Source: Deltaproteobacteria bacterium
GTDB lineage: Bacteria > Desulfobacterota > GWC2-55-46 > DRME01
Length of the DNA: 41,954 nucleotides
Direction of reading: 5' to 3'
Assembly (NCBI GenBank): GCA_011375175.1
Contig: DRME01000068.1
Location: 1 to 41,954 of the forward strand
Shown: positions 9,929-25,242 of the stretch, piece by piece
Position numbering within the stretch: position 1 is the first letter of the stretch
Layout of the letters: the number at the start of each line of letters is the position of its first letter
Made by a program: the position numbers and the translations under genes
Notes under the pieces: model-generated
What the model saw: the letters and a program-made list of their open reading frames with translations, nothing else
Database searches by the model: none
What the model was told of the DNA's origin: nothing

Positions 9929-10239
9929 AAGACCGCAGCCGCCGTTTCGTCACCCGTCCGTGAAAGTGTAAAAGTATTTTACGGCGCGGCGAGGGAGCGC
10001 CGCCGCTGCGGCCTGGAAGGCTAACCCCCCGGTATCGTAAGGGTTTCTTGCTCCAGCCTCCATGAAAGGCAGCACCGTGCCGCCCCCCTGGCGTCAGCAT
10101 ATGTTGACACTTTTCCCCGCGGCTCCCGGCGCTTCCCCGGGCGATTTCAAACCTCTTATTGAAAAAACTTTGTAATGCAAGGAGTTGTCTTCAGATGGGG
10201 CGGCAGCCGTCATCCGAGGTACGATTTTTGCATTGTTCA
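9929..10239. other. Gene-free gap before the PEP-CTERM duplication, with a 16-bp palindrome
   Basis: No convincing gene is seen. The one clear signal is GTCAGCATATGTTGAC (10093-10108), palindromic except for one pair, which looks like a dimeric repressor or activator site. An AT-richer stretch at 10144-10178 contains TGTAAT (10171-10176) and could hold a weak promoter for the PEP-CTERM genes. A possible 18-codon leader frame starts at ATG 10195, after AAGGAG. I do not find a sigma-54 promoter of the TGGCAC-N5-TTGC type. Confidence 0.4.
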
Positions 10240-10376
10240 CAGTCCAGGTGAGCTGGACCCCCGGTGACAGGGGCCTGCGGGTGCGCTTCGCGGGTCCACC
10301 CCTTGCAATACCGCTTCACCGGCGGAAGAGTTCGGAACCCTCACCGGGGGTTCCCGAGAGAAAGGAGATCGGAGGG

Positions 10377-11330
10377 ATGATGAAGAAGAGACTTGCCGCC
10401 TTGCTGGCGGTAGTTGGCGTTTTGCTGGGCCTTGCCGGCCAGGCGTGGGCCCTCTCCATAGGCGCGAACGTCACGGCCCAGACGGGCACGGGCGGGACCG
10501 TCACGGACTCTAAGAGCGGTCCACCCCCTTCAACGGTCAAGGCCTCTGTCGTTTCGTTAAGCCCTTCAGACTCCGCCCTTACCAGCGCCGTTGCGACGAC
10601 GGCCGGCGACCTGAGCACGGCCGTCTACGCTGGCGGCTTTGGGCGGGGGAGTTGGATCAACAACATCAACAACGAAAGCTACAGCGCCCAGGCCGTCTCC
10701 ACGTGGAGCCTCGGCATCTCCAACACCACCGCCGGAGCGAAAGCCTACACGCTTGATCTGAGCATCGTCGACGGCTTTCTCAACACGAGACGCATCAGCG
10801 GGGCCGTGCCCGGCGACTTCGCCACGGCGTCCATATCCCTGGAGGTGACGCTCGACTCGTCGGTAGTGTGGTCCAATACGACCACGCTCCACCAGATCTA
10901 TCCGTCCACAGCGCCGCCTACACTCACCGCTGCCGGCACGAGCACGACGCCCTTCGGAGGGGGCTCTCTGAGCCTCGTCGACTCCGGCAGTACCTACTCT
11001 GAGTGGGAGTATGAGTGGAGCCCTTTCACCCTGTCGATCCCCCTCGGCACCCTCGCCCCCGGCGGGTCGTCCACCGTGGGCTATACTCTCACCGCCTCCG
11101 TTAGCGGCAGCATCCACAATAGCTCCTCCGATGCCTCGTCCGACGCCCTTCTCGGCGACCCGCCCCAACTCTACTCCACCGGCGGCGGCGGGCCCTTCTA
11201 CGGCACCGGCGTCGGCGTCAGCATCACCTCCTCGCCCGCCGCGGTGCCTGAGCCCTCGACGCTTCTCCTTACGGGAGCGGCCGTCTTCCTCGGTCTCACG
11301 GCGGCCGGGAGGCTGGGACGCTCCGCTTAG
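10377..11330 (+). CDS. PEP-CTERM surface protein, copy 1
   Basis: A 317-residue exported protein starting MMKKRLAALLAVVGVLLG (signal peptide, cleaved after about AWA). It has a Ser/Thr/Gly-rich beta-type body and the C-terminal sorting signal VPEPSTLLLTGAAVFLGLTAAGRLGRSA: the PEP motif, a hydrophobic helix and a basic tail. PEP-CTERM proteins are processed by exosortase and usually end up in the envelope or exopolysaccharide matrix. No exosortase is in this window. ATG 10377 is chosen because GGAGATCGGAGGG lies just upstream and a signal peptide follows directly; longer starts upstream have none. It is about 80% similar to its downstream copy. The function of the body is unknown. Confidence 0.88.
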   Translation: MMKKRLAALLAVVGVLLGLAGQAWALSIGANVTAQTGTGGTVTDSKSGPPPSTVKASVVSLSPSDSALTSAVATTAGDLSTAVYAGGFGRGSWINNINNESYSAQAVSTWSLGISNTTAGAKAYTLDLSIVDGFLNTRRISGAVPGDFATASISLEVTLDSSVVWSNTTTLHQIYPSTAPPTLTAAGTSTTPFGGGSLSLVDSGSTYSEWEYEWSPFTLSIPLGTLAPGGSSTVGYTLTASVSGSIHNSSSDASSDALLGDPPQLYSTGGGGPFYGTGVGVSITSSPAAVPEPSTLLLTGAAVFLGLTAAGRLGRSA

Positions 11331-11542: not shown

Positions 11543-12451
11543 ATGATGAAGAAGAGACTTGCCGCCTTGGTGGCGGTGCTCGGTGTTTTGCTGGGCCTCG
11601 CCGGCCCGGCGCGGGCCCTCTCCATAGGCGCGAACGTCACGGGCCAGACGGACACGGGCGGGGCCGTCACGGACGCTAAGAGCGGTCCACCCCCCGCAAC
11701 GGTCAAGGCCGTAGCCGCTTCGTATGGCATTTATTCCACCACTGGCGGCGTGGCGACGACGGCCTCCGACCTGAGCACGGCCGTCTACGCTGGCGGCGAG
11801 GGGTGGGGGTGGAACGACGGCTACAGCGCCCAGGCCGTCTCCACGTGGAGCCTCGGCATCTCCAACACCACCGCCGGAGCGCAAGCCTACACGCTCGATC
11901 TGAGCATCGTCGGCGGCTCGCTCTTCACGTACCTCGACGACTGGGCCGTGCCCGGCGACTTCGCCACGGCGTCCATATCCCTGGAGGTGACGCTCGACTC
12001 GTCGATAGTGTGGTCCAATACGACTACACTCCACCAGCCCTATCCGTCCACAACGCCGGCTACACTCACCGCTACCGGCACGAGCACGACGCCCTTCGGA
12101 GGGGGCTTGCCGACCCCCGGCCCCGGCGGCACCTACTATAACTGGAGCGCCTTCAACCTGTCGATCCCGCTCGGCACCCTCGCCGCCGGCAGTTCGTCCA
12201 CCGTGGGCTACACCCTCACCGCCTCCGTTAGCGGCCTCAATAACTCCCTCTACGCCTCGTCCTACGCCAAGCTCGGCGACCCGTCCCAACTCTACTCCAC
12301 CGGCGGCGGCGGGCCCTTCTACGGCACCGGCACCGGCGCCAGCATCACCTCCTCGCCCGCCGCGGTGCCGGAGCCCTCGACGCTTCTCCTTACGGGAGCG
12401 GCCGTCTTCCTCGGTCTCACGGCGGCCGGGAGGCTGGGACGCTCCGCTTAG
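11543..12451 (+). CDS. PEP-CTERM surface protein, copy 2
   Basis: A 302-residue paralogue of the preceding gene from the tandem duplication. It has the same signal peptide (MMKKRLAALVAVLGVLLGLAGPARA), shared blocks such as YSAQAVSTWSLGISNTTAG and the identical exosortase signal VPEPSTLLLTGAAVFLG ... RLGRSA. It differs by short deletions around residues 55-95 and 185-205. The ribosome binding site and ATGATG start are copied exactly. As the copy 1 terminator is broken, both genes may share a transcript that ends at the 12474-12512 terminator. Like copy 1 it is presumably displayed in the envelope or biofilm matrix. Confidence 0.88.
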   Translation: MMKKRLAALVAVLGVLLGLAGPARALSIGANVTGQTDTGGAVTDAKSGPPPATVKAVAASYGIYSTTGGVATTASDLSTAVYAGGEGWGWNDGYSAQAVSTWSLGISNTTAGAQAYTLDLSIVGGSLFTYLDDWAVPGDFATASISLEVTLDSSIVWSNTTTLHQPYPSTTPATLTATGTSTTPFGGGLPTPGPGGTYYNWSAFNLSIPLGTLAAGSSSTVGYTLTASVSGLNNSLYASSYAKLGDPSQLYSTGGGGPFYGTGTGASITSSPAAVPEPSTLLLTGAAVFLGLTAAGRLGRSA

Positions 12452-13031: not shown

Positions 13032-15209
13032 ATGCGTTACCTACGATACACGATTCTCTTCATAGCTGTTCCGGTCGCTGTCTGTCTTGTTGCTTCTCTA
13101 TCGTGTATTGATTCGCTCTTCCACGTCGTTCCTTCGGCCTACGCCACGGGCGGGGCCTTCAAGGACACCAAGCACGGCGGCGGCACGGTCGACGGCATAG
13201 ACTTCCAGGGCGTCGACCGGTCTGTTAACCCCGACTACGGAAGCTACTACAACGACCTTACCGGCGAGGGCGGCCGCTACAAACCCGGCGAGTGCGTCCA
13301 CTGCCACGAGGTCCACGCAAGCTTCGGCGAAAGCGAGCCGCCTCCGGCCTCGGGCTCGGTATGGGACCCCGACGGCGGTCCCAACCCCTATCTCGGTCTC
13401 GCCGGTGCGGACCAGAACTTCTGCTTCTACTGCCACGAAAGCATAAACTTCGACCCCGTCTTCGGGGGAGGGACGGGCTACTGGCGTTTCTTCCAGGGCA
13501 AGGCCCGTTACCTGGAGTCGGGCCACTACAACTCCACGGTCATGAAGAACCCCGGCTACGGGGTGGGCTCTCCGTGGCCGAGGACCGACCGCACGGGCAA
13601 CCTCCTCTCCGGTCACTGTCTCCAGTGCCACACGCCCCACGGCCTTCGCGGCTCCTACGACACGGGCACGGCGCCGTCGACGTCCAACCTCTACGTCTCG
13701 TCCACCGTCGACAACGGCCTGCTCCCCCGCCAGCTCATAGCGCGTGAGGAGGCCCTCTGTCTCAACTGCCACGACGGGAGCCCGGCGTCGAAGGACGTGA
13801 AGACCTGGATAGACAAGCCCCTTGCCGGCGCCTACGGCCATCCCGTGCGCAAGGACTCCTACTACGGCCGCCACGACCTTGCGAGCGAGAGTCCCATCTT
13901 GCTCGCCGAGGGATGGCTCGACAACAATCCCCACACCGAATGCACGGACTGCCACAACCCCCACGTGGCGGGCAAGGGCCCTGGAGACACGGCCAAGGCC
14001 TATTCCCATCAGGACGAGCAGGTCGCCTACAACACCAATCGCGGGGGCACGAACACGGCGAGCGGACCCGTGCGCATATCGAACGTGAACCGCGGGGTGT
14101 GGGGCGTGTCCGTGACGACCTCCACGGGAGCCGTCTCCTGCTGCATAGACAGCCTGGAGCCCGACACCAACTACGTCTACGAGCTCTGCCTGAAGTGCCA
14201 CTCCCAGTTCGGCCTGGGCACCTCCACCACCCTCACGTCGTCGTCGGCCGTCGACGCCGCCTATCCAACGACGGGCACGCCGACCGGGCAGACGCCCTAC
14301 GTGGCCAACCGGCAGCGCCTCACCGACGTGGCCGCCGAGTTCGCCACCGACAACTACGGCTACCACCCTGTCTTCGCCAAGGGCAAGAACCAGCCGCCCT
14401 GCAACGCCAACCCCAACTGGCCGGGCGGCGGGGCCGCGGGCCAGGGGGACACGGGCTCCGGCGCCGACGCGGCCACCGGCGGCTGCGGCCTCTCCAACAA
14501 CTTCGTCGCCCCCTGGCGCCACGACAGCTACGTGACCTGCATAGACTGCCACACCACGCCATCGGGCGACCCGAACACGACGGCCATCGGCCCCCACGGC
14601 TCGAGCAACAGGTGGATGCTCAAGGACGTGGACCGCTCCATAACGATCACCTACGTGGGCGGAGGCGGCTACTCCTACTCGACGGGCAACGCCGAGACCG
14701 TCGCCGTCTCGCCCACGGAGAAGACCTTCTGCTTCAACTGCCACCGCGCCGACGTCTACGGTCCCCTCGACCAGGGCACCGACGGTGGCGGCGGAGGCGG
14801 CATGGGCGGAGGCGGCATGGGAGCCACCCCCCCGACCAAGGCCAACTATGCGCGCCAGCCCCACGTGTCGAGCTACGACTACCGGCCGTGGTCGTCGTCG
14901 TGGCTCCCCAAGCAGGGCATCCACTGCATGCACTGCCACGGCGGCGGCACGGCCGGAGGTCTCCACGGCTCGAGGTGGGGCAAGAACCCCTGGGGATACT
15001 CCGGGGCCACGGGGGCCAAGAGCTACTCGGGCCGCAGACTCCTGAACGGCGCCACCTGGATCGCCGTCACCAGGGGCTCGACCACCCAGGCGGGCGCGTG
15101 CTGGACCGAGGGGTCGATAACCGGCATGAGCTCGTGCACCAGGCACAATACCGGCAGGACTATGAACAAGTACTCGACCTACGACTACGAGTCGGGAGCG
15201 GACCCATAA
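13032..15209 (+). CDS. Nine-heme c-type cytochrome, periplasmic or exported
   Basis: A protein of 725 residues with an N-terminal signal (cleavage after about PSAYA, residue 40). It has nine CxxCH heme c motifs in order: CVHCH (about residue 88), CFYCH, CLQCH, CLNCH, CTDCH, CLKCH, CIDCH, CFNCH and CMHCH (about 632). Many further His residues (CHEVH, CHTPHG, CHNPHV) fit bis-His ligation and the doubled-CxxCH style of electron-transfer cytochromes. A Gly/Met-rich loop lies before the ninth heme, and the C-terminus has two non-heme Cys. The function is likely electron transfer in anaerobic respiration or to extracellular acceptors. It has its own promoter and stands next to the cytochrome maturation operon. 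I cannot name a close family. Confidence 0.9.
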   Translation: MRYLRYTILFIAVPVAVCLVASLSCIDSLFHVVPSAYATGGAFKDTKHGGGTVDGIDFQGVDRSVNPDYGSYYNDLTGEGGRYKPGECVHCHEVHASFGESEPPPASGSVWDPDGGPNPYLGLAGADQNFCFYCHESINFDPVFGGGTGYWRFFQGKARYLESGHYNSTVMKNPGYGVGSPWPRTDRTGNLLSGHCLQCHTPHGLRGSYDTGTAPSTSNLYVSSTVDNGLLPRQLIAREEALCLNCHDGSPASKDVKTWIDKPLAGAYGHPVRKDSYYGRHDLASESPILLAEGWLDNNPHTECTDCHNPHVAGKGPGDTAKAYSHQDEQVAYNTNRGGTNTASGPVRISNVNRGVWGVSVTTSTGAVSCCIDSLEPDTNYVYELCLKCHSQFGLGTSTTLTSSSAVDAAYPTTGTPTGQTPYVANRQRLTDVAAEFATDNYGYHPVFAKGKNQPPCNANPNWPGGGAAGQGDTGSGADAATGGCGLSNNFVAPWRHDSYVTCIDCHTTPSGDPNTTAIGPHGSSNRWMLKDVDRSITITYVGGGGYSYSTGNAETVAVSPTEKTFCFNCHRADVYGPLDQGTDGGGGGGMGGGGMGATPPTKANYARQPHVSSYDYRPWSSSWLPKQGIHCMHCHGGGTAGGLHGSRWGKNPWGYSGATGAKSYSGRRLLNGATWIAVTRGSTTQAGACWTEGSITGMSSCTRHNTGRTMNKYSTYDYESGADP

Positions 15210-15411: not shown

Positions 15412-15900
15412 CTATGGGCGGGCGCCGGAATCGGCCACATCGATGTGCCTGCTCTCGTCGATTATCTCCACGTCCTCGACGATCCAGGACTCGCCCTCTC
15501 TTGCCAGAGTGTACGATATCTCGTAACGCACCTCCCTGGGACCTTCGACGAGGTCCCCGCTCTTTACGTTCACCCACTTGTAGCGCCATTTCTCCACGGT
15601 CCTTACCCGGCGGCTCGAACCGTCGCCTTCGATCTCCTTGAAGTCGAGGCTCAAGAGCTCCGAGTCCATGACCCTGTCGGCCTGGAGAAAGGACTGGACG
15701 ACGATGTCGACTTTCGTCAACTGCCGCTGGGAGGTTACCGAGGCGAGTATCTCGGGGTCGAGGTCGCGGTATGCCTTTATGATGCCCTGCGTATAACGTA
15801 GTACGGCGGACTTGACGGCCTCGTCGGTGTCGGGCTGCGCGCTCGTGCACGAGACGGCGAGAAAGGCTGCGCCGAGTAGAAAGAAAAGGGTTCGCTTCAT
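15412..15900 (-). CDS. Small lipoprotein with an IMS/SnoaL-like C-terminal domain
   Basis: A 162-residue protein with a lipoprotein signal (MKRTLFFLLGAAFLAVSC, lipid-accepting Cys at about 18). The domain reads AVKSAVLRYTQGIIKAYRDLDPEILASVTS ... EKWRYKWVNVKSGDLVEGPREVRYEISYTLARE..SWIVEDVEII. The order of a helix followed by curved-sheet strands resembles the ARC6-type IMS/NTF2-like fold, but the molecular role is unknown. ATG 15900 is chosen; the GTG at 15903 just before it is possible. The gene has its own extended -10 promoter and is divergent from the 16076 operon. Confidence 0.78.
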   Translation of the reverse strand: MKRTLFFLLGAAFLAVSCTSAQPDTDEAVKSAVLRYTQGIIKAYRDLDPEILASVTSQRQLTKVDIVVQSFLQADRVMDSELLSLDFKEIEGDGSSRRVRTVEKWRYKWVNVKSGDLVEGPREVRYEISYTLAREGESWIVEDVEIIDESRHIDVADSGARP

Positions 15901-15908
15901 CACCCACG

Positions 15909-16037: not shown

Positions 16038-16051
16038 TTGATATATATCAA
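16038..16051. promoter_or_regulatory. FNR/CRP-family operator
   Basis: TTGATATATATCAA matches the FNR consensus TTGAT-N4-ATCAA exactly. It is centred about 31 bp upstream of the ATG at 16076 in an AT-rich island (16005-16055). Oxygen- or nitric-oxide-responsive FNR/DNR regulators bind this sequence. No regulator gene is in the window. The position suggests control of the 16076-23882 cluster. The transcription start is not identified, so activation and repression cannot be told apart. Confidence 0.72.
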
Positions 16052-16075
16052 ATAACGGAATTCGAGGGGGCTTGA

Positions 16076-16315
16076 ATGTCCACAGGTGACGGGGTCTGTC
16101 CCGGCTGCGGCAGGCCGTACAGGAAGACGGCCGGCCTGGCCGTACACATGTTGGTCGGCGCGGCGGCGGGCCTGGTGGTCGGCACCGCCTTCGTGGCCTA
16201 CTGGTTCGGCACCTACGCCGGTTTTTTCCACAACATGGCCATCATCCACGAGGTGGCCGGCACACTCCTCGGCGGGCTCATCGGCGCGGTGGCGGCCGTG
16301 TGGAGGAGGAGATGA
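16076..16315 (+). CDS. Small zinc-ribbon membrane protein
   Basis: A 79-residue protein with an N-terminal CPGCG half-ribbon (residues 8-12) and two transmembrane helices: LAVHMLVGAAAGLVVGTAFVAYWF and EVAGTLLGGLIGAVAAVW. GAGGGGG at 16063-16069 supports ATG 16076. Its TGA overlaps the ATG of the thioredoxin gene (ATGA), so the two are translationally coupled. It is the first gene behind the FNR-type site. No family is recognised; a scaffold or metal-sensing role in the cytochrome-maturation cluster is a guess. Confidence 0.68.
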   Translation: MSTGDGVCPGCGRPYRKTAGLAVHMLVGAAAGLVVGTAFVAYWFGTYAGFFHNMAIIHEVAGTLLGGLIGAVAAVWRRR

Positions 16316-16806
16316 GCAGGCCCTTCGCTGCACTTGCCGCCCTGCTGCTGATGGCGGCGCTGCTGCAGGGATGCGCCGGAGCCGAGGCCGGGACGCAGAG
16401 CCCCGACTTCACGGTCCGTATCGTGGGTGGCGCGGACGGCTCGTGGACGGGCAGGACCGTGACGCTGTCGCAGCTTCGGGGCAGGCCCGTGGTCATCCAC
16501 TTCACGGCGAGCTGGTGCAACGCCTGCAAGCGCATATTCGACGCCGTGACCACGGGCTACGCCGACGTCTTTGTCATGGGTGTGGGAGTGATGGACAGAA
16601 AGCCCAACATAGTCGACTTCGTGCGCTCCCAGGGGCTTTCGGCGCCGGTGGGCTACGACGAGGACGGCTCCATAGCCCGCGACTACGGCGTGAACACCCT
16701 GCCGCTCACGGTCTTCATCGACCGTGACGGCGTTCTCGTAGAGCGGGTCCTGGGCGTTGTCGAGGGCGAACGGCTACGCAGCATAATGGAAAGGATTTCG
16801 GCCTGA
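16312..16806 (+). CDS. TlpA/ResA-like thioredoxin lipoprotein
   Basis: A 164-residue lipoprotein (signal ending LLQGC) with a thioredoxin fold: VVIHFTASWCNACKRIFD has the redox pair C69-C72, and GVNTLPLTVFIDRDG contains the cis-Pro. Such envelope thioredoxins (ResA, CcsX, TlpA) reduce the CxxCH cysteines of apocytochromes before heme attachment. Its place upstream of two ResB-CcsA pairs agrees with that job. The active site CNAC differs from the usual CxPC, which often shifts redox potential. Start ATG 16312 overlaps the previous stop and has GGAGGAG upstream. Confidence 0.87.
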   Translation: MSRPFAALAALLLMAALLQGCAGAEAGTQSPDFTVRIVGGADGSWTGRTVTLSQLRGRPVVIHFTASWCNACKRIFDAVTTGYADVFVMGVGVMDRKPNIVDFVRSQGLSAPVGYDEDGSIARDYGVNTLPLTVFIDRDGVLVERVLGVVEGERLRSIMERISA

Positions 16807-16849
16807 GGCCGCACGCAGAGGGGACCGTCGGCCGCTCGCCCTTGAGACC

Positions 16850-18322
16850 ATGAAAAAAGGCGCCATCCTCTTTATAACCCCGCCCTACCATGCGGGAGTG
16901 GTCGAGGTCGCCGGCAGGTGGGTGCCCCTCCATCTCGTCTATCTGGCCGGGGCGGTCAGGGCCGCCGGCTTCGAGGCCGCCATCTACGACGCCATGACGA
17001 AGGATGTGGGCCACGCCGAGATCGAGGCCCGCATACGGCAGATGCGGCCCCGCTACGTGGCCACATCGGCCATCACATGCACCTTCCCCGACGCCCTCGC
17101 CGTCATGGAGACGGCCAAGCGCGTGGACCCGTCGATCACCACCATAATGGGCGGCATACACCCTACCTTCATGCACGAAGAGGTGTTCACCCTCTCGGCC
17201 CACGTGGACTTCGTCGTCGTGGGCGAGGGCGAGAAGACGGTGGTCGAGCTGCTCGATGCGCTCGAGGGCGGCGGCGACCCCCTTGCCGTGGCCGGCGTGG
17301 CGACGCGCGAGGGCGCAGGGCCGCAGCGCCCCCTCATGGAGCCCGGCGAGCTCGATGCCCTTGCCAAGGCGTGGGACCTGCTCGACTGGGACGACTACCG
17401 CTACTTCGTCATACCCGACTCAAGGCTCGGCGCCGTCGACACCTCGCGGGGCTGCAACAAGGACTGCAGCTTCTGCTCGCAGCGGCGCTTCTGGCGCCAG
17501 AGCTGGCGGGGACGCAGCCCTGAGTCGGTCGTCGCCGACATGGAGACCCTCAAGCGCGAGCACGGCGTCAACGTCGTGCTCTTCACCGACGACTATCCCA
17601 CATACGACAGGCAGAGGTGGGAGCGCCTCCTCGAGCTGCTGCTTCTGCGCAACCTGGGCTCCTACATCCTCATGGAGACGAGGGTGGAGGACATACTGCG
17701 CGACAGGGCCATACTCAAGGAGTACCGCCGGGCCGGCATCATACACGTCTACGTGGGCACCGAGTCGACCGACCAGGCCACCCTCGACCTCTTCAAAAAG
17801 GACGTGAAGGTCGAGGACGCCAAGGAGGCCATAGGGCTTCTCAACGACCACGGCATCATAACGGAGACGTCCATGATACTGGGGCTTCCGGCCGAGACGA
17901 GGGACTCCATCGAGCGCACCCTTCGGCTCGCCAGGGAGTACAACCCCGACTTCTGCCACTTCCTCGCCATAGCGCCATGGCCGTACGCCGACATGTACGA
18001 GGAGCTCGCCCCCCACGTGGCGGTCAGGGACTACCGCCGCTACAACCTCATCGACCCCGTGGTGAAGCCCCGGGCCATGGAGCTCGACGACATAAACTCG
18101 GCCATAGTGGACTGCTACAGGCGCTTCTACATGGACAAGCTCCACGAGGTCGTAAGGATCGGGGACCGCTTCAAGCGCGACTACCTGCTCTTTTCCATGA
18201 AGCTTATGATGACCAACTCCTTTCTCGTGGAGAAGATAGGCGGCCTCGGCGAGATGCCCGAGGAAGTGAAGCGCCACCTCGCCATACTGCGCGAGCCGGA
18301 AAAGGAGGTGACGGGGCTTTGA
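16850..18322 (+). CDS. Cobalamin-type radical SAM enzyme, BchE-like (module 1)
   Basis: A 490-residue protein. Residues 1-135 form a B12-binding-type Rossmann domain (ILFITPPYH, YLAGAVRAAGFEAAIYDA, IMGGIHPTF, VDFVVVGEGEKTVVELL) lacking the canonical DxHxxG, as in most of this class. Residues about 190-420 are the radical SAM core with CNKDCSFC (C202, C206, C209). The stretch CSFCSQRRFWRQSWRGRSPESVV ... DDYPTYDRQRW resembles BchE, the anaerobic Mg-protoporphyrin ester cyclase, so a tetrapyrrole substrate is possible. That is inference, and there are no chlorophyll genes here. It begins 43 nt after the thioredoxin gene and is followed by ResB and CcsA. The reaction is unknown. Confidence 0.85.
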   Translation: MKKGAILFITPPYHAGVVEVAGRWVPLHLVYLAGAVRAAGFEAAIYDAMTKDVGHAEIEARIRQMRPRYVATSAITCTFPDALAVMETAKRVDPSITTIMGGIHPTFMHEEVFTLSAHVDFVVVGEGEKTVVELLDALEGGGDPLAVAGVATREGAGPQRPLMEPGELDALAKAWDLLDWDDYRYFVIPDSRLGAVDTSRGCNKDCSFCSQRRFWRQSWRGRSPESVVADMETLKREHGVNVVLFTDDYPTYDRQRWERLLELLLLRNLGSYILMETRVEDILRDRAILKEYRRAGIIHVYVGTESTDQATLDLFKKDVKVEDAKEAIGLLNDHGIITETSMILGLPAETRDSIERTLRLAREYNPDFCHFLAIAPWPYADMYEELAPHVAVRDYRRYNLIDPVVKPRAMELDDINSAIVDCYRRFYMDKLHEVVRIGDRFKRDYLLFSMKLMMTNSFLVEKIGGLGEMPEEVKRHLAILREPEKEVTGL

Positions 18323-18361
18323 GCCCGCCGCGCGCCGCGGGGCGGTTCCTTGCGCCGGACC

Positions 18362-19408
18362 ATGAGAGTAGTCGACATCCTCGTATCGAGGGGCTTTGCC
18401 GTCTTCCTGCTGGCGGCCTCGCTCGTGCTGCTCGTCTTCATGGCCAGGCGCACGGGCCTGTACAGCCCGCTCTTTGTCCTGCTGCCCGCCTTCGTCTTTG
18501 CGAGCCTCTTCTTCTGTACGCTTCGAAGGTACAGGGCCCGGCGGCGCAGGAGCGTCAAGTTCATCGGGTCGCTCGTCTTTCACGGCGGGCTCATGGCCGG
18601 CGTGGCCGTCATCTTCTTCGCGCCCCTTGTGAGGTTCTCCGCCTATGTGGAGGCGCTCGAGGGGATGAGCGTATCGGCCGACGACGGCGACTACGTGACC
18701 GTGCTCGAAAGGCCCCTCGTCGGCCCGGCCGCGCCTTTTATATCTTTCAAGCTCGAACGCTTTGTTATAAGATACAAGGACGACGTCTATCCCGTCGACT
18801 ATACGGCGTACTCGCGCATCGCCTTTCTCGAGGGCGGCGAGTTCCGGGACGTGGAGGTCCCCATACGGATAAACGGTCCCTTCCGCCGCGGCGGCTACAC
18901 CTTTCTGCTCGAAAACGGCGGCTACGCCGGGCGGTTCGTACTGAGCGACCGGAGCGGGGCCGTCCTCTTCGACCGTTACGTGAAGCTGGCGCGTGAGACG
19001 GCCAGGGAGGACTCCTTCGAGGCCCCGGAGGCGGGCCTTGTCTTCTACACGAGGTTCTTTCCCGACCTCTACGTGAAGGACGGCGGTGTGGGCACCCGGT
19101 CTCCATATCCGAGAAATCCCGCCTTCGGCATAAAGGCGGCGCGCAGGGACGACCCCTTCAGGGACATATTCAAGGGGGTGCTCAGGGTGGGGGAGTCGGC
19201 CGGCTTCGACGGCCTTACGCTGCGCCTTGCCGACATCAGGGCCTTCGCCGTCATATACGTCGTCAGGGACCCGACCTATTACTGGATATTCGTGAGCTGG
19301 ACGGCCATCGTCGCGGGGCTTGCCATGCGTTACGGGCCGCTGCTCCTGGAGCGGCGCGACGGCGCGGGGCCGGCCCCGTCGGCGGGAAACGGAGGTGAGG
19401 CCACGTGA
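18362..19408 (+). CDS. ResB-like cytochrome c biogenesis protein (module 1)
   Basis: A 348-residue membrane protein. Two N-terminal helices (FAVFLLAASLVLLVFMA; LFVLLPAFVFASLFF) and a third carrying the conserved His (FIGSLVFHGGLMAGVAVIFFA) are followed by a periplasmic domain of about 220 residues and a C-terminal helix (YYWIFVSWTAIVAGLAM). This is the short ResB/Ccs1 architecture. ResB pairs with CcsA to move and ligate heme to apocytochrome c. The motif VRDPTYYWIFVSW before the last helix is typical. ATG 18362 is chosen, though its ribosome binding site is weak. The stop overlaps the next start. Confidence 0.85.
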   Translation: MRVVDILVSRGFAVFLLAASLVLLVFMARRTGLYSPLFVLLPAFVFASLFFCTLRRYRARRRRSVKFIGSLVFHGGLMAGVAVIFFAPLVRFSAYVEALEGMSVSADDGDYVTVLERPLVGPAAPFISFKLERFVIRYKDDVYPVDYTAYSRIAFLEGGEFRDVEVPIRINGPFRRGGYTFLLENGGYAGRFVLSDRSGAVLFDRYVKLARETAREDSFEAPEAGLVFYTRFFPDLYVKDGGVGTRSPYPRNPAFGIKAARRDDPFRDIFKGVLRVGESAGFDGLTLRLADIRAFAVIYVVRDPTYYWIFVSWTAIVAGLAMRYGPLLLERRDGAGPAPSAGNGGEAT

Positions 19409-20211
19409 GGGCGCTCGAGGCCCTGCTGCTGTGGTCGACGGTGGGGCTCTACTTCGTCGACTTCTTCATAATGCTCTACGCCGTGGTCTTCGGCCGCCGC
19501 TCCCTCGTGCGCCCGGGCTGGCTCGCAGCCGTCGCGGCCTTCCTCTTCCACTCGGCCACCATCGCCAACCGATGGATCGAGTCGGGCCATCCGCCGGTGC
19601 TCTGGCGCTTCGAGCACGCACTGGCCGGCTCGTGGCTCGTCGCCGCCATATACCTCGCCGTCGGCAGGGCGGCCCCGCAGCTCAGGGTGCTGGGGGTCAC
19701 CGTGACGCCCTTCGTCATCCTCATGCTCGGCTACGGCATCATGGGCGGACCCGCCTCGGTGGAGCCGCTGCCGCCGCCCTACCAGAGCAACTGGCTCTGG
19801 GTCCACGTCTTCTTCGCCTGGGCCGCCTACGGCGCCTTCGTAGTCGCCGCCGCGGTGGGCGTCTACTACCTCGTCAAGGCCAGGGGTGCCGGCCGCGATG
19901 AAGTGCGGCTGGCCTCGCTCGACGAGCTCTGCTTCAGGGTCGTCATCTTCGGCTTCGTAAGCCTCACCGTCGAGATAGGCGCCGGGGCCATATGGGCCTA
20001 CGGCCTGTGGGGCAGGTACTGGGGCTGGGACCCCATAGAGACGTGGAGCCTCGTCACCTGGGTCGTCTACGGCCTCAATATCCACCTGCGGGCAAGCTAC
20101 GGCTGGAAGGGGTCCAGGGCCGCGTGGCTCGCCATAGCGTCGCTTGCGGCCGTGCTCGTCACCTTCGGCGGAATCGGCTTCATAGGCGGCGTCCATACGC
20201 CTCTTCTCTGA
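19405..20211 (+). CDS. ccsA: CcsA/ResC-like heme-handling protein (module 1)
   Basis: A 268-residue polytopic protein with the tryptophan-rich WWD domain AYGLWGRYWGWDPIETWSLVTWVVYGLNIHLR, which is canonical for CcsA. Conserved His are at FLFHSATI, WLWVHVFFAW and NIHLR, the external and internal heme ligands. CcsA with ResB forms the System II cytochrome c synthase: heme crosses the membrane and is presented to the CxxCH motif. The GTG start overlaps the ResB stop (GTGA) with CGGAGGTGAGG upstream. All key residues are present, so this copy should be functional. Confidence 0.93.
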   Translation: MRALEALLLWSTVGLYFVDFFIMLYAVVFGRRSLVRPGWLAAVAAFLFHSATIANRWIESGHPPVLWRFEHALAGSWLVAAIYLAVGRAAPQLRVLGVTVTPFVILMLGYGIMGGPASVEPLPPPYQSNWLWVHVFFAWAAYGAFVVAAAVGVYYLVKARGAGRDEVRLASLDELCFRVVIFGFVSLTVEIGAGAIWAYGLWGRYWGWDPIETWSLVTWVVYGLNIHLRASYGWKGSRAAWLAIASLAAVLVTFGGIGFIGGVHTPLL

Positions 20212-20233
20212 GGGCTTTCAGGGGGTATCGCGC

Positions 20234-20617
20234 ATGGTCGGCATATTGGTGATGATGAACAACTACTTCCACGACTTCGCCACGGCGCTGGTCGTGGTCT
20301 GCACATACGGCATGCTCATGATGGTCCGCTACGTGGAGCGAAGCGGCGGCGAGGAGTCGCGCCGCATGGTGCTGGCCCTCTATCCCCGCATGGTCCACCT
20401 CACCGGCGGCTCGGTCGTCTTCGTCATGCTCGCCGGAGTGGTGCGGGCCTTCACCTACGGCGACTACGAGTGGCAGAGCGCCGTCTCCAACAACCAGGTG
20501 GCGGCCCTCATGGTCAAACACGTCATACTCTTCGCCCTCTTCTTCTACGGCCTCGGTCTCTGGGTCAAGGTCCACCGCAAGATAAGGGAGTTCAGGATGG
20601 CGCAGGGCAAATCCTGA
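20234..20617 (+). CDS. Three-helix membrane protein, probable heme-associated subunit
   Basis: A 127-residue protein with three transmembrane helices and His residues near their ends: NNYFHDFATALVVVCTYGMLMMV, MVHLTGGSVVFVMLAGVVRAF and ALMVKHVILFALFFYGLGLWV. The pattern suggests a b-type heme or quinone-site subunit similar in size to DUF2269/CopD-like proteins, but no family is certain. It starts 22 nt after the CcsA stop, with GGGGG upstream, and closes the first module. A role in feeding heme or electrons to the ResB-CcsA complex is inferred from position only. Confidence 0.65.
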   Translation: MVGILVMMNNYFHDFATALVVVCTYGMLMMVRYVERSGGEESRRMVLALYPRMVHLTGGSVVFVMLAGVVRAFTYGDYEWQSAVSNNQVAALMVKHVILFALFFYGLGLWVKVHRKIREFRMAQGKS

Positions 20618-20639
20618 CTTTCTCCGCCGGGGTAGTCTC

Positions 20640-20750
20640 TTTGCGCGGCGGGAAGGCGCCCCCCCTGCCTCCGCAGGGGCAGGCCGGGGTGCAAGGGTCT
20701 CTGAAGAGACCGCGGCCCGTGAGGCCCTTTTCCGCAGGGGCCGCCCGGAA
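20640..20750 (+). repeat. Cluster of three hairpins between the two modules
   Basis: In the 157-nt gap three self-complementary segments follow each other: GCGCCCCCCCTGCC paired with GGGCAGGCCGGGGTGC (about 20656-20693), GGTCTCTGAAGAGACC (20697-20712), and GCGGCCC paired with GGGGCCGC (about 20713-20746). No T-run follows. They resemble the other intergenic hairpins in GC-rich style but do not carry the shared core. They could protect the upstream mRNA or lower read-through into module 2. Confidence 0.5.
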
Positions 20751-20774
20751 AAGACACAGCAGAGAGCGTGTGAC

Positions 20775-22154
20775 ATGAAGCTCACCCTCATCTCCCCGCC
20801 CTTCGGCGAGGCCGTGCGTTCGAGCCGGCTCATGTCCATGACCGGCCTTGACGAGATACAGAAGAGCGAGGGATTGCCCATAGCTCCGCCGGTGCTCGAG
20901 TATCTGGCGGGCCTTACCGGCAAGGTCGCCCCCCACGTGGAGGTGGAGCTTGTGGACGCCAACCGCCAGGACCTCGACGTCTCGGCCCTTGACGCCGACG
21001 TCGTGGGCTTTACGGTCCTCACGCCCCAGGCGCCGTGGGTATACAGGCGGGCCGATGAGCTGCGGTCCATGGGCAGGAAGGTGGTGCTCGGCGGCATGCA
21101 CGTGACGGTGCTGCCCCGCGAGGCCGCCGCCCACGCCGACGCCGTGATCATCGGCGAGGCCGAGAGCTGCTGGGGCGAGTGCCTCTCCGACGCCGAGGCC
21201 GGCCGCCTCAAGCCCTTTTACCGCGGCGTGAGGGCGGGGCTCGAGGACCTTGCCCGTCCCAGGCGGGGGCTCCTCGCCACGCGCTATCCCATGGGCTCCT
21301 TCTTTACCGCCCGGGGCTGTCCCTTCAAGTGCGCCTACTGCTCGGTATACAGGTTCTTCGGCAACGCCATTCGCCACCGCCCCATCGAGGATGTGGTGGC
21401 CGAGGTGGCCGAGAGCCCCTACTGGATGTTCTGGAATGTGGACGACAACATCTGGGGCGCCGGCATGGACCGCTCCATAAGGCTCTATACGGAGCTCTAC
21501 CGCGAGCTGTCGGGGATGCGCAAGTGGTGGATAGGGTCGGGCGATCTCGTAAGCCCCCAGCACTCGCGGGGCCGCGAGCTCCTCAAGTGGGCGCGCAGAA
21601 GCGGCCTCACGCTCGTCATGGTGGGCTGGGAGACGGAGAACGCGGCGAGTCTCGCCGAGTGGAACGCCCTGCTCAAGCAGGGCGGCAGGCGCCGCGAGGC
21701 CGTGAGGATGATACGCGATCACGGCATAGACGTCATGCTCTTCATCATGGTCGGCGGGCGCAGGGACACCCCCGACGATTTCAAGCGGGCCCTCGACATA
21801 TCCGACGAGCTGGGCTGCATGATCCACCCCATGATGGTGACACCCTTTCCGGGCACGGACCTCTACGAGCTCTACAGGCCGTACCTCATCGCCGGGCGGG
21901 GCTGGGAGTACTACAACGGCAACCGCGCCGTCTTCGAGCACGACGACCCCGCCATGAGCGTGGAAAACCGCGAGAAGGCGCTCTTCTGGCTGCGGGCCGA
22001 GGCCTTTTCGGCCTCGAGGATCATGGGGAGGCTGTGGGAGCTGGGACCGAGGGGCTTCCCCATGACGCACGTGACCTCCGCCATGATACAGGTGCCCATG
22101 GGCAGGGCCTTCAGAGAGATAAGGGAAGGCAACCCCTATGTCCAGGGTAGTTGA
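20775..22154 (+). CDS. Cobalamin-type radical SAM enzyme (module 2)
   Basis: A 459-residue protein. The N-terminal B12-binding-like domain (about 1-150: LTLISPPFG, VVGFTVLTPQAPWVYRRADELRSMGRKVVLGGMHVTVLP, ADAVIIGEAES) precedes a radical SAM core with CPFKCAYC (C182, C186, C189) and IMVGGRRDTPDDFKRAL, a typical SPASM-less class B layout. It is only distantly related to the module 1 enzyme. There is no long N-terminal extension. Start ATG 20775 has only a weak ribosome binding site. Its 3' end overlaps the following ResB gene by 17 nt, so the two are coupled. Substrate unknown; a role in heme or cytochrome modification is inferred from its neighbours. Confidence 0.84.
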   Translation: MKLTLISPPFGEAVRSSRLMSMTGLDEIQKSEGLPIAPPVLEYLAGLTGKVAPHVEVELVDANRQDLDVSALDADVVGFTVLTPQAPWVYRRADELRSMGRKVVLGGMHVTVLPREAAAHADAVIIGEAESCWGECLSDAEAGRLKPFYRGVRAGLEDLARPRRGLLATRYPMGSFFTARGCPFKCAYCSVYRFFGNAIRHRPIEDVVAEVAESPYWMFWNVDDNIWGAGMDRSIRLYTELYRELSGMRKWWIGSGDLVSPQHSRGRELLKWARRSGLTLVMVGWETENAASLAEWNALLKQGGRRREAVRMIRDHGIDVMLFIMVGGRRDTPDDFKRALDISDELGCMIHPMMVTPFPGTDLYELYRPYLIAGRGWEYYNGNRAVFEHDDPAMSVENREKALFWLRAEAFSASRIMGRLWELGPRGFPMTHVTSAMIQVPMGRAFREIREGNPYVQGS

Positions 22155-23112
22155 CGTCCTCGGCTCAAGCCTCCTCTCCATGGGTCTGCTCGTCGCGGGC
22201 GCGCTCTACTTCGCCTACCTGACGGCCCTCTCCTTCGCTGCCCTCGAGCCTCCCGCGCCCTTCATGGTCTGGGGGCCCTTCGCCCTGTGGGGAGCCCTAT
22301 TCACGGCCAACACGGCCGTAAGCCTCGTGAGGAGAAGGTACCGCTACAGGGGTAACCTCGTCTTCCACACGGCCTTCCTGCTCGTTGCCGCCGGGGCCGT
22401 GGCGAGCGTTCTGTGGAGGTTCGAGGCCTCGGCCGTCGTTCTCGAGGGGGAGATATTCTCGGGCGGCCCCGGCGAGTACGACACCGTCGAGGCCGGAAGC
22501 CTCGCCGCAGCGCCCCATCTCTCCTTCAGGGTCGAGAGCATAAGACCCGCCTACTGGCAGGGACGCCTCTATTTCACGGGGCTCGAGGCCGAGATCACCT
22601 ACCCGGCGGGCTCCTTTTCGCAGCGTTCGCTGTTGAGGCTCAACGGCGGGCCGTCGGTGGGAGGAGCGCGCCTTCGCATCATACGCTACGGCTTCTTTCC
22701 AGAGCTGCTCTTCACGGAGAGGGGGGAGGCGGTGGTGCGCCGGGCCGTGCCCATGATGGTCTTTCCGCCGGGCTCGGAGGACGTCATAAAGGTGAAGAAC
22801 TACGACCTCTACATAAAGGTCTTGAGCGACCCCGAGTTTGTCGGCGGCCGCTACGTGAACAGGGGGATGGACGTGACGGAGCCGCTCTTCCTGGCAAGGC
22901 TTCTCTGGCACGGCACGACCATACACGAGGGGCCCTTCCGTGCCGGCGAGTCCATAACCTTCGCCGGCGTGACCGTCACCTTCACGGGCCTTCGCCAGTG
23001 GGTCGAGGTGGGGGTGGTCAGGGATCCCGGCGAGCCGGTGACCTTCGCAGGCTTTGTCACGGCCGCCATCGGTCTCTTGATGAGGCTTGTCCCTGCCGTG
23101 AGGCGGACGTGA
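22138..23112 (+). CDS. ResB-like cytochrome c biogenesis protein (module 2)
   Basis: A 324-residue protein of the same build as the 18362 gene: two N-terminal helices, a His-bearing helix (RGNLVFHTAFLLVAAGAVASVLW), a periplasmic domain of about 200 residues and a final helix (VTFAGFVTAAIGLLMRLVPAV). The start MSRVVDVLGSSLLSMG parallels MRVVDILVSRGFAVF of module 1, so the two ResB copies share ancestry although the middle has diverged strongly. Its start lies inside the radical SAM gene and its stop overlaps the CcsA start. It presumably works with the downstream CcsA. Confidence 0.8.
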   Translation: MSRVVDVLGSSLLSMGLLVAGALYFAYLTALSFAALEPPAPFMVWGPFALWGALFTANTAVSLVRRRYRYRGNLVFHTAFLLVAAGAVASVLWRFEASAVVLEGEIFSGGPGEYDTVEAGSLAAAPHLSFRVESIRPAYWQGRLYFTGLEAEITYPAGSFSQRSLLRLNGGPSVGGARLRIIRYGFFPELLFTERGEAVVRRAVPMMVFPPGSEDVIKVKNYDLYIKVLSDPEFVGGRYVNRGMDVTEPLFLARLLWHGTTIHEGPFRAGESITFAGVTVTFTGLRQWVEVGVVRDPGEPVTFAGFVTAAIGLLMRLVPAVRRT

Positions 23113-23882
23113 ACGCGGCGGCCGGCATAGCCTTCACGGCGGGCCTCGTCTTTTACGGCGCGGCGGCCGCGGCCGCGCCCGCCGGGCTTGTCCGCCTCTA
23201 CAGGCTCTCGGCCGCCGGCGCCCTGGCGTCCCATCTGCTGTATATCCTGCTCCGCTGGCGCATTTCGGGGCATCCGCCCATACTGGGCACCTTCGAGGAG
23301 AGTCTCTGCGCCGCCTGGTCGGTGACGCTCTCGGCGCTGCTCATGGACCGGCAGGGCCGAACCGCCGCCTTCACCGCGCCCTTTGCCTTCCTCACGCTCC
23401 TCTACGGCCTGGGCTTCGAGACCGGGCCGAGGCCGCTCATCATCTCCGAGCAGAGCCTGTGGGTCTACTTCCACGCCCTCTTCGCCTGGGCCGCCTACGG
23501 GCCCTACACGGTGAGCTTCGCCGCCGCCCTGCGGATACTGTGGGGCAGGGGGGAGGGCGACGGACCGCGGCGCATCCTCTACGCCGGCCTCCTGTACGGA
23601 CTCATGGGCCAGACGGTCATGTTCGTGCTCGGCTCCTACTACTCGTCTCTTCTCCACGGCGCGCTCTGGACCTGGGACCCCGTGGAGTACCTCTTCGTCG
23701 TAAGCTGGCTCGTCTTCGCGGCCGCCGTGCACGGCCGCATCTTCTTCGGCTGGTCGCAGCGACGGGTGGCCCGGTGGGCGGCCGCGGGCTTCCTGGCCGC
23801 CGTGGTCCTCTACTGGGGGCTCGTATACTTCCCGTGGTCGACCTACCACGTATTCGACCCCGAATACAAGATACACGGATGA
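23109..23882 (+). CDS. CcsA-like protein with a divergent WWD motif (module 2)
   Basis: A 257-residue polytopic protein starting at GTG 23109, overlapping the ResB stop. It shares ISGHPPILGTFEESLCAAW with the SGHPPVLWRFEHALAGSW of CcsA-1, and has LWVYFHALFAWAAYGPYTV. The heme-binding loop reads LLHGALWTWDPVEYLFVVSWLVFAAAVHGR. The core WxWDPxE is kept, but the canonical WGxYWGWDPKETW start and ETW end are altered (EYLF). The external and internal His candidates remain (YFHALF, AVHGR). It may therefore handle a different or modified heme, or a special apocytochrome. It ends the operon, before palindrome D. Confidence 0.82.
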   Translation: MNAAAGIAFTAGLVFYGAAAAAAPAGLVRLYRLSAAGALASHLLYILLRWRISGHPPILGTFEESLCAAWSVTLSALLMDRQGRTAAFTAPFAFLTLLYGLGFETGPRPLIISEQSLWVYFHALFAWAAYGPYTVSFAAALRILWGRGEGDGPRRILYAGLLYGLMGQTVMFVLGSYYSSLLHGALWTWDPVEYLFVVSWLVFAAAVHGRIFFGWSQRRVARWAAAGFLAAVVLYWGLVYFPWSTYHVFDPEYKIHG

Positions 23883-24095: not shown

Positions 24096-24590
24096 TCAGT
24101 GGCGGAAGGTCTTGTGGCAGGCGTTGCAGTTGTTTATCAGTTCCGCGAGGAGTCTGAGGGCGTCGTCGCGGCGGCCTTCTTGCGCGGCGACGACCAGCTC
24201 GTCCGCCTTTTTGTGGACCGCCATGCCGAGCTCGACGAATCCGCTCTCGCCGGTCATCTTTTCCACCTTGGAGCAGCGCTGCTCTTCCTGGGGCGACCAG
24301 CCGAGCACCCTGGCGGCCTCGGCCGCGGCGGCCGTGTCGTTCGCCGCCAGCGCCGCCGTTATGTCGGCCACCGTGTCGAGGTGGCGGCGCATCATCTCCT
24401 TCTGCATCACCTTCATCGCCGCCGGGAGCTTGAGCTCCCGGCGCTCGTCTTTCATCGCTGCGCCCATCATCATGGCGCCGTGGCCGCCGCCGTGACCGTG
24501 GCCCTTGCTTAGCGCACCCTGCTCGAGGGTGAAAAAGAGCGCCGCCGCCGAGAAGGCGAGGGCGAAGGCGGGTATGAACACTCTCTTCAT
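24096..24590 (-). CDS. Cytochrome c'-like monoheme protein
   Basis: A 164-residue protein with a signal peptide, a His/Gly/Met-rich stretch (KGHGHGGGHGAMMMG, about 29-43) and a four-helix-bundle body. The single heme motif CNACHKTFR is at the extreme C-terminus, the hallmark of cytochrome c' and c-556. These periplasmic proteins bind NO or act in electron transfer or stress defence. The His-rich segment after the signal is not part of the standard fold and could bind metal. ATG 24590 has AGGAAAA upstream. It is downstream of, and probably co-transcribed with, the DUF3365 gene. Confidence 0.87.
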   Translation of the reverse strand: MKRVFIPAFALAFSAAALFFTLEQGALSKGHGHGGGHGAMMMGAAMKDERRELKLPAAMKVMQKEMMRRHLDTVADITAALAANDTAAAAEAARVLGWSPQEEQRCSKVEKMTGESGFVELGMAVHKKADELVVAAQEGRRDDALRLLAELINNCNACHKTFRH

Positions 24591-24617
24591 GGCTTTTCCT
24601 CTCTCTCTCTGTGTTTC

Positions 24618-24641
24618 CCGGCGGGACTTCCGCCGGGGGCT
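24618..24641 (-). repeat. GC-rich hairpin between the two heme-protein genes
   Basis: CCCGGCGG (24618-24625) and CCGCCGGGGG (24631-24640) are complementary. No T-run follows on the minus strand, so it is more likely an mRNA-processing or stability structure than a terminator. It lies in the 97-nt gap of the presumed two-gene operon. Confidence 0.4.
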
Positions 24642-24687
24642 CGGGTCAGTCGCTCCGGGGGAGCCTCTTTGAAGAATGATAGCGCTT

Positions 24688-25242
24688 TCAGGGGATGGTG
24701 AATATGACGGATATCATGCCTCGAATGTCGCCGGGCACAAAGCCGTAGGCCCTGTCGTCGCCGTACCTCTCCTTGACGAATCGCGGCCGCAGGGCGGCCG
24801 GTCCGTGACAGGCCAGGCATGACCTCTCGACGAATACGGGCATGTGGAAGGCGATGGTCTTTTTGCCCTCCTTCTCCCTCATCTCGGTGATGGAGAGCAG
24901 TGTCCTGTCGCTGTCGAATCTTTCGATGAGGGCCTTCTCGTCCGGCGTGGCCGCGTTGGCCGGGTTGCGGTACCTGACGGCGGAGTGTCTTATGGTGACG
25001 CCTTCGCGCGCCGATATGCCCTTTATGCGGCGGACGACCTGGCCGCACACCCCCCTGAAGGTCTCGATGTCCGCGTCCGAGCCGCCGCCGACAAAACTTG
25101 CGGCCAGCGAACTTCTCAGGATGGTTATCTCCCTGGCTATTTCTTCGGCCCTCTCGAAGAGGGCGGCGGGGGCGGCCGCGCCGGCGGGAGCGGCCGCAAG
25201 GAGGACGCAGGCGGCCAGGATGGTCGAAAGTTTCCGTTTCAC
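24688..25242 (-). CDS. DUF3365 (Tll0287-like) periplasmic heme c sensor-type protein
   Basis: A 184-residue protein with a signal peptide (to about AAPAGAAA). The DUF3365 pattern is clear: IRHSAVRYRNPANAATPDEKALIERF, FHMPVFVERSCLACHGPAALRP (one CxxCH), then YGDDRAYGFVPGDIRGMISV. DUF3365 is a PAS-like heme c domain found free or as the sensory part of chemoreceptors and kinases; here it is a stand-alone periplasmic protein. GTG 25242 has GAGGTG 8 nt upstream. It requires the cytochrome c maturation machinery encoded nearby. The role (redox sensing or electron carrying) is unproven. Confidence 0.87.
   Translation of the reverse strand: MKRKLSTILAACVLLAAAPAGAAAPAALFERAEEIAREITILRSSLAASFVGGGSDADIETFRGVCGQVVRRIKGISAREGVTIRHSAVRYRNPANAATPDEKALIERFDSDRTLLSITEMREKEGKKTIAFHMPVFVERSCLACHGPAALRPRFVKERYGDDRAYGFVPGDIRGMISVIFTIP

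Follow-up and report, generated by a model that had tools for sequence, protein, structure and literature searches.

A sister family of BchE is coupled to a specialised ResB–CcsA branch and to multiheme cytochromes: a possible heme-altering form of System II

The cluster described here lies at 16038–23882 of contig DRME01000068.1 (41,954 nucleotides; C68 of a 2.49-Mb assembly, 98.6% complete) from a Deltaproteobacteria bacterium; the whole contig is referred to as the window. It encodes two cobalamin-binding radical S-adenosylmethionine (SAM) enzymes, rSAM1 and rSAM2, two ResB–CcsA pairs of the System II type and a small membrane protein, TM3. There is good support for a coupling of rSAM1, which belongs to a sister family of BchE, with both a dedicated CcsA/ResB branch and a family of cytochromes; the linkage of BchE-family radical SAM genes to ResB–CcsA is conserved across at least ten phyla. 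This coupling is undescribed in the open-access papers that were searched: no paper in that subset describes a system that joins radical SAM or BchE to ResB/CcsA, and these genes are not mentioned in the published papers on Carboxydocella and Carboxydothermus cytochromes.

The cluster and its conserved linkage

The order rSAM1–ResB1–CcsA1–TM3–rSAM2–ResB2–CcsA2, with ZnMem and TlpA ahead, was confirmed as nine open reading frames on the plus strand (16076–23882), in agreement with an earlier note on this DNA. The genes for CytMH and lip163 fall just outside 16038–23882, yet they are part of the unit in other genomes. The genes are as follows.

13032–15209, + strand: CytMH, secreted multiheme cytochrome with 9 CXXCH (motif scan; PF09699)
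15412–15903, − strand (divergent here): lip163, small lipoprotein with only a weak NTF2-like match (PF25155, E = 0.04)
16076–16315, + strand: ZnMem, 79 residues, with a CPGC zinc-ribbon-like start and hydrophobic helices
16312–16806, + strand: TlpA/ResA-like lipoprotein thioredoxin with a WCNAC motif and a lipobox (PF00578, 8e-17)
16850–18322, + strand: rSAM1, cobalamin-binding radical SAM enzyme of the BchE sister family (PF02310 and PF04055)
18362–19408, + strand: ResB1 (CcsB-like), short form of 348 residues (PF05140, 31.6 bits, above the cut-off of 24.6)
19405–20211, + strand: CcsA1, of the specialised CcsA branch (PF01578, 1.4e-34, 120 bits, cut-off 29.9)
20234–20617, + strand: TM3, small three-helix membrane protein with conserved HD...G..R...KH
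20775–22154, + strand: rSAM2, second cobalamin-binding radical SAM enzyme (PF02310 and PF04055), of no named family
22138–23112, + strand: ResB2, divergent short ResB (PF05140, 42.2 bits, cut-off 24.6)
23109–23882, + strand: CcsA2, divergent CcsA (PF01578, 8.4e-16, 58.7 bits, cut-off 29.9)

Overlaps were read directly in the sequence: ATGA between ZnMem and TlpA, GTGA within each ResB–CcsA pair and 17 bp between rSAM2 and ResB2, the last three as the earlier note had them. TlpA matched NF002854 at 1e-18, below the model's cut-off. A ZnMem homologue lies immediately upstream of rSAM1 in a relative (locus L035; L numbers denote loci throughout).

An rSAM1 alignment was used to scan 84,980 species genomes, which gave 78 loci, 74 of them with a near-complete rSAM1. 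These came from Nitrospirota, Myxococcota and other 'Deltaproteobacteria', Bacillota, Acidobacteriota (Geothrix), Anaeromyxobacter and gammaproteobacterial metagenome-assembled genomes, and further from Zixiibacteriota, Planctomycetota, Elusimicrobiota, Bacteroidota and others. A survey of 299 Bacillota genomes, chosen without regard to neighbourhood, gave more of the same linkage. Loci with at least 6.5 kb on either side were counted as full-flank, and linkage was defined as CcsA or ResB within 8.5 kb of rSAM1. By this measure 41 of 52 full-flank loci were linked (24/31 from the scan and 17/21 from the survey, some of which may be the same genome) against a background of about 4% estimated from the window's genome; the co-occurrence of radical SAM, ResB and CcsA genes to which the earlier note pointed extends over at least ten phyla.

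Unbiased clustering of the open reading frames at 91 loci (scan plus relatives) gave ResB (50), CcsA (50) and TM3 (47) as the three most widespread neighbours, followed by the multiheme cytochrome, lip163 and rSAM2. The recurrent order is cytochrome–ResB–CcsA–(lip163)–TM3–(rSAM2)–rSAM1. Linked loci usually carry a multiheme cytochrome or TM3, and a cytochrome with at least five hemes adjoins rSAM1 in 18 of the 21 survey loci. Among 59 related genomes, 11 contain a true rSAM1 (at least 693 bits); ResB2 is present in ten of these and in none of the other 48 (Fisher 2e-10, not corrected for descent), and presence and absence of the two alternate within single families (f3, f8 and f11). In a phylum set of 148 genomes, rSAM1 exceeded 570 bits in six, and the C-terminal domain of the cytochrome was found in all six compared with 10 of the 142 others. 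No viral copies of ResB2 were found.

Two variant arrangements were recorded. In the Nitrospirota loci L055–L076, FTR1/FtrD-like membrane proteins, ResB-like and SRPBCC proteins and a MacB/LolD-type transporter are combined with rSAM1, rSAM2 and TM3. In Carboxydocella, L206 (C1:1050000–1069900) has a BchE-like paralogue after ABC-transporter-like genes, with neither cytochrome nor ResB–CcsA neighbours.

rSAM1, the synthases and the cytochrome

Phototroph BchE is the anaerobic Mg-protoporphyrin IX monomethyl ester cyclase, which forms the isocyclic ring. Its closest relative is rSAM1, which nevertheless belongs to a separate clade and is not BchE by the NCBI cut-off. It scored 395.5 bits against the BchE model TIGR02026 (curated cut-off 481.35) and five other family members scored 387–432 bits, compared with 756–816 bits for phototroph BchE controls. 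Identity to phototroph BchE is 35–40% (about 38%) over the full length. BLAST scores between the two groups were 275–366 bits, whereas either group matched the next BchE-annotated proteins at about 155–222 bits; tree and BLAST alike agree with the earlier note that the first enzyme is BchE-like. In the tree, the 74 rSAM1 rows form one group (Shimodaira–Hasegawa-like approximate likelihood-ratio test, SH-aLRT, 96) apart from the six BchE rows (100), with the root not resolved. The two share the order of the cobalamin and radical SAM domains, the CX3CX2C cluster motif and an N-terminal YHxGxxExAGxW motif that, among the cobalamin enzymes aligned, is common to rSAM1 and BchE only; late PWPY/F...YN blocks (PWPxxxLY/F and YNxxxPxxKP) are likewise missing from the others. 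In contrast to BchE, rSAM1 has no adjacent bch genes and is tied to ResB–CcsA and multiheme cytochromes, and every member tested falls below the family cut-off. The nearest folds to an AlphaFold2 (AF2) model of rSAM1 (predicted local distance difference test score, pLDDT, 89) were AprD4, TsrM and MgmA; no BchE structure was found in the copy of the PDB that was searched.

A BchH-like match was absent from 18 of the 21 rSAM1 genomes searched, with heliobacterium-type controls positive. Two rSAM1 genomes (G000 and G002) have only a chelatase-like protein below the cut-off, elsewhere in the genome, and Carboxydocella has two BchH/CobN-like proteins, one of them barely above the cut-off in sum. 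In G000 (L242, C4:10000–24000), a 1381-residue, CobN-like frame gives a sub-cut-off match to a BchH model; it stands in a gene run that may include a secreted substrate-binding protein and possibly concerns heme or cobalamin uptake. In two Bacillota survey genomes, both with a full BchH, a protein at 467–475 bits reads as real BchE. At L240 (heliobacterium-type), real BchE adjoins reaction-centre, methyltransferase and bch-type genes, not ResB–CcsA; loci of this type are a useful negative control for the link.

In five Bacillota loci, rSAM1 forms the N-terminal half of a 940–1060-residue protein, with a LuxE-type acyl-protein synthetase (PF04443) as the C-terminal half, followed by one to several CSTVAD cysteine repeats. 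A LuxE gene lies close to rSAM1 in eight more loci, giving 13 with fusion or adjacency (Bacillota, Nitrospirota and others). In L222–L226 (Bacillota) the CSTVADGM repeats vary in copy number, and several of these loci adjoin cytochromes with 58–67 CXXCH. In the lux system, LuxE converts carboxylic acids to acyl-AMP and then transfers the acyl group to one of its cysteines close to the C-terminus, and the substrate of BchE is a porphyrin propionate esterified by BchM. By analogy, the LuxE part may therefore replace BchM by activating the propionate. Genes like hemA, hemC or cobA stand in the same gene run as the cluster in L090, L228 and L236.

The second enzyme, rSAM2, is not a close relative of BchE by profile scores or BLAST. 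Its best NCBIfam match was TIGR04013 (77 bits, cut-off 251), with no model above its cut-off, and it was found near rSAM1 in 14 of the 74 scan loci.

Both synthase pairs have the System II domains, with ResB and CcsA above the curated cut-offs. As canonical ResB/CcsA loci are present on contigs C18 and C38 of the same genome (and a further CcsA on C122), the two pairs in the window are additional to the housekeeping System II, and the CcsA tree bears this out. A third ResB-like gene in the window (39291–40352, 353 residues) has no CcsA partner and precedes a nicotinate-phosphoribosyltransferase-like gene. In CcsA1, WGRYWGWDPxETW and four histidines align to a CcsA of known structure (25vk), corresponding to the WWD motif, TM-His1/2 and P-His1/2 that characterize System II CcsA (PMC6299221). 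CcsA1, which alone was scored, gave 174.2 bits against the canonical CcsB equivalog TIGR03144 (cut-off 187.6). CcsA2 retains a reduced WWD motif (WTWDPVE) and the histidines, as judged by eye only, and had no PDB match.

The CcsA tree is split (98% SH-aLRT) into a housekeeping branch and another, of 59, to which most linked copies belong, CcsA1 and CcsA2 included; CcsA2 has its own subclade of six (100% SH-aLRT). Four rows labelled unlinked in the specialised branch (L165, L166, L172 and L175) actually lie a few kilobases from rSAM1. The exceptions to this branch are the Nitrospirota variant and one copy each from Carboxydocella and Lentisphaerota. Profiles of the two branches separated all 84 training rows. 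The specialised branch was present in 7/7 rSAM1 genomes and in 0/10 genomes that lack rSAM1 and have a related cytochrome domain. Of 29 CcsA-type proteins read in these ten, 25 were assigned to the housekeeping branch; the remaining four resemble CcmF/CcmC and scored close to background (42–59 bits), and two further weak matches were left out.

The locus resembles System II (ResB/CcsB, ResC/CcsA and ResA) in its PF05140 and PF01578 pairs, its TlpA/ResA-like thioredoxin and the CcsA1 motif with four histidines, and differs in the divergent CcsA branch beside canonical copies, the short ResB and the coupling to radical SAM enzymes and TM3. An extra synthase dedicated to particular cytochromes is also found in Wolinella (NrfI, and a CcsA1 of its own), for which we know of no radical SAM partner. 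Those synthases serve odd motifs, CXXCK or CX15CH (PMC12285233), whereas the window has split genes and CXXCH sites. TM3 was modelled well by AF2 (pLDDT 89.5) and is distantly CopD-like in some members (Pfam CopD at 3e-4 to 0.3). Its assignment by fold to HemJ or CopD was rejected, as the model had no significant PDB match.

The C-terminal domain of CytMH is conserved beside ResB–CcsA–rSAM1 in many phyla. The linked cytochromes share in this domain the elements CxDCH, GPHGS, CxNCH and CxxCH...HG, and contain from about 5 to 67 CXXCH motifs. Compared with the PDB, the domain gave weak matches only, to nitrite reductases and reaction-centre cytochromes, with OmcS at E = 0.23, and is accordingly assigned no structural identity. 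The motif scan found 0 CXXCK in CytMH against its 9 CXXCH, so that it is not a cytochrome of the NrfI-dependent CXXCK type. CytMH, like most linked cytochromes, has a C-terminal tail with two further cysteines, which might form a disulfide, provide an unusual site for heme or act as an anchor. Some relatives end instead in a heme-type CX3CH motif (L144, L145, L141 and L142). CytMH is proposed to be the substrate of the module.

Proposed chemistry and its alternatives

The heme of c-type cytochromes is taken to be unmodified heme b, attached via its vinyl groups. We propose that these genes form a specialised System II branch: an enzyme of the BchE family would alter heme, which a dedicated synthase would then attach to a dedicated cytochrome. 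Of this, the coupling of the genes is observed and the chemistry inferred, and our confidence in the whole is evenly balanced with our doubt. Homology and gene context are most economically read as heme alteration by the enzyme. rSAM1 would modify heme, or a porphyrin precursor, in the cytoplasm using SAM and cobalamin, most likely at a propionate side chain as for BchE, and rSAM2 would carry out a second, optional step. TlpA would keep the CXXCH cysteines reduced, the specialised CcsA–ResB would carry the altered heme across the membrane and attach it to CytMH, and TM3 would possibly handle the tetrapyrrole. The module would likely serve to tune or rigidify the hemes of a cytochrome that transfers electrons across the cell envelope or outside it. 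A more specific form is offered tentatively: a new c-type heme whose propionate is modified (hydroxyl, oxo or ring closure) by the BchE-family enzyme, LuxE-type fused in some lineages, and which the dedicated CcsA–ResB may install in multiheme cytochromes across ten or more phyla of mostly anaerobic bacteria.

Several points weigh against heme as the target. Peptides, sugars and lipids are also substrates of class-B radical SAM enzymes, and MgmA and TsrM are structural neighbours of the rSAM1 model. No CcsA or ResB lies near rSAM1 in 7/31 scan and 4/21 survey full-flank loci, among them that of the second BchE-like copy of Carboxydocella (L206), although each could act in trans. The genomes are related and the counts hence not independent. 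The linked CcsA of Nitrospirota is nearer to the canonical branch, in clusters with FTR1/FtrD-like and SRPBCC proteins. LuxE is absent from the window and from its genome, so the LuxE clue concerns the family and not this locus.

An unlikely alternative, though the best placed, is that rSAM1 and rSAM2 modify the cytochrome polypeptide before export (e.g. by C-methylation) and that the dedicated ResB–CcsA attaches ordinary heme b to a cytochrome whose binding sites are special, in the manner of Wolinella NrfI and CcsA1. The structural proximity of MgmA, a peptide methylase, and of TsrM is consistent with this, as are the two-cysteine tail of the rSAM1-linked cytochromes where some relatives have CX3CH and the precedent of System II synthases for odd motifs (PMC12285233). 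The nearest characterized relative of rSAM1, by a wide margin, is nevertheless a tetrapyrrole enzyme, the window cytochrome lacks CXXCK, and there is wide variation among rSAM1-adjacent cytochromes in their length, number of hemes and spacing of the tail.

It is rather improbable that the product of the module is an exported, free tetrapyrrole or another small molecule (a metallophore, quinone or lipid), with CcsA/TM3 as the exporter and the cytochromes as mere neighbours. Such a role would suit the Nitrospirota clusters, which join rSAM1, TM3, CcsA-like and ResB-like genes to FTR1/FtrD-like and SRPBCC ligand-binding genes and some of which have no cytochromes nearby, and LuxE domains do activate carboxylic acids. 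However, the multiheme cytochromes beside most survey copies of rSAM1 and the heme-attachment features retained by CcsA1 argue against it.

The earlier note had paired rSAM1 with ResB1–CcsA1 and rSAM2 with ResB2–CcsA2, giving two different hemes. The gene order of the window and the 17-bp rSAM2/ResB2 overlap favour this model, and parallel two-module genomes do exist in Bacillota; there, however, the modules contain two BchE-like paralogues, each with its own cytochrome–ResB–CcsA. The contigs of relatives show two separable units, which the window has side by side. Unit A consists of the multiheme cytochrome, lip163, ResB1, (TM3) and CcsA1, and unit B of TlpA, rSAM1, (rSAM2), ResB2 and CcsA2; several genomes continue after unit B with a lipoprotein, a beta-barrel-like protein of about 700 residues and cytochromes. 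Beside ResB2–CcsA2, rSAM1 occurs together with rSAM2 (L029, L035 and L036) or alone (L031 and L033), whereas ResB1–CcsA1 is often found without any radical SAM gene (L032, L040 and L042). With the two units side by side in the window, the apparent one-to-one pairing of enzyme and synthase is most simply put down to chance in the local gene order. Synteny in close relatives contradicts a dedicated enzyme for each pair, and with rSAM2 no close relative of BchE the two-heme model is very improbable.

An ordinary extra System II locus with radical SAM genes as chance neighbours can practically be dismissed: these cytochrome-rich bacteria do often carry several copies of CcsA in one genome, but the excess over background at full-flank loci refutes chance linkage, and the spread over phyla, the co-occurrence within patchy families and the separate CcsA branch speak against it.

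Regulation, neighbouring genes and significance

A predicted regulatory site precedes the cluster.

16038–16051, no strand assigned: perfect FNR/CRP-type palindrome TTGATATATATCAA, about 25 bp upstream of the first gene

The sequence at 16038–16051, TTGATatatATCAA, has 0 mismatches and is the only site with at most one mismatch in 42 kb, where 0.14 would be expected. With TTGATNNNNATCAA near the first gene, the locus has a predicted FNR-regulon site by sequence match, and the module in this genome probably responds to low oxygen through it. The FNR-type site reported in the earlier note is therefore present, but it is not conserved elsewhere: among 145 loci only one further exact site was found, just ahead of TM3–CcsA–ResB–TlpA–rSAM1 in L059. 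Sites with at most one mismatch numbered 67 in 1.35 Mb of loci compared with 36 in simple shuffles, wherever they lay relative to operon starts. FNR control as a general property of the family was dropped, and the site is treated as local.

Elsewhere in the window, 10185–11330 and 11543–12451 encode a tandem pair of nearly duplicate, secreted proteins whose VPEPSTLLLTGAAVFLGLTAAGRLGRSA tails are typical of PEP-CTERM sorting. Right after the cluster, 24096–25242 on the minus strand encodes cytochrome c'-like and Tll0287-like heme proteins.

A relative of a chlorophyll enzyme that has its own heme-attachment genes in many non-photosynthetic bacteria suggests that heme may be altered before insertion. 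Carboxydocella thermautotrophica is a cultured host with a complete genome, in which the claim is directly testable by mass spectrometry. If it is true, an important class of electron-conducting cytochromes would carry altered hemes, changing the redox potentials and structures expected of them, and the closest relatives of a key chlorophyll enzyme would belong to heme metabolism, which would bear on the origin of BchE.

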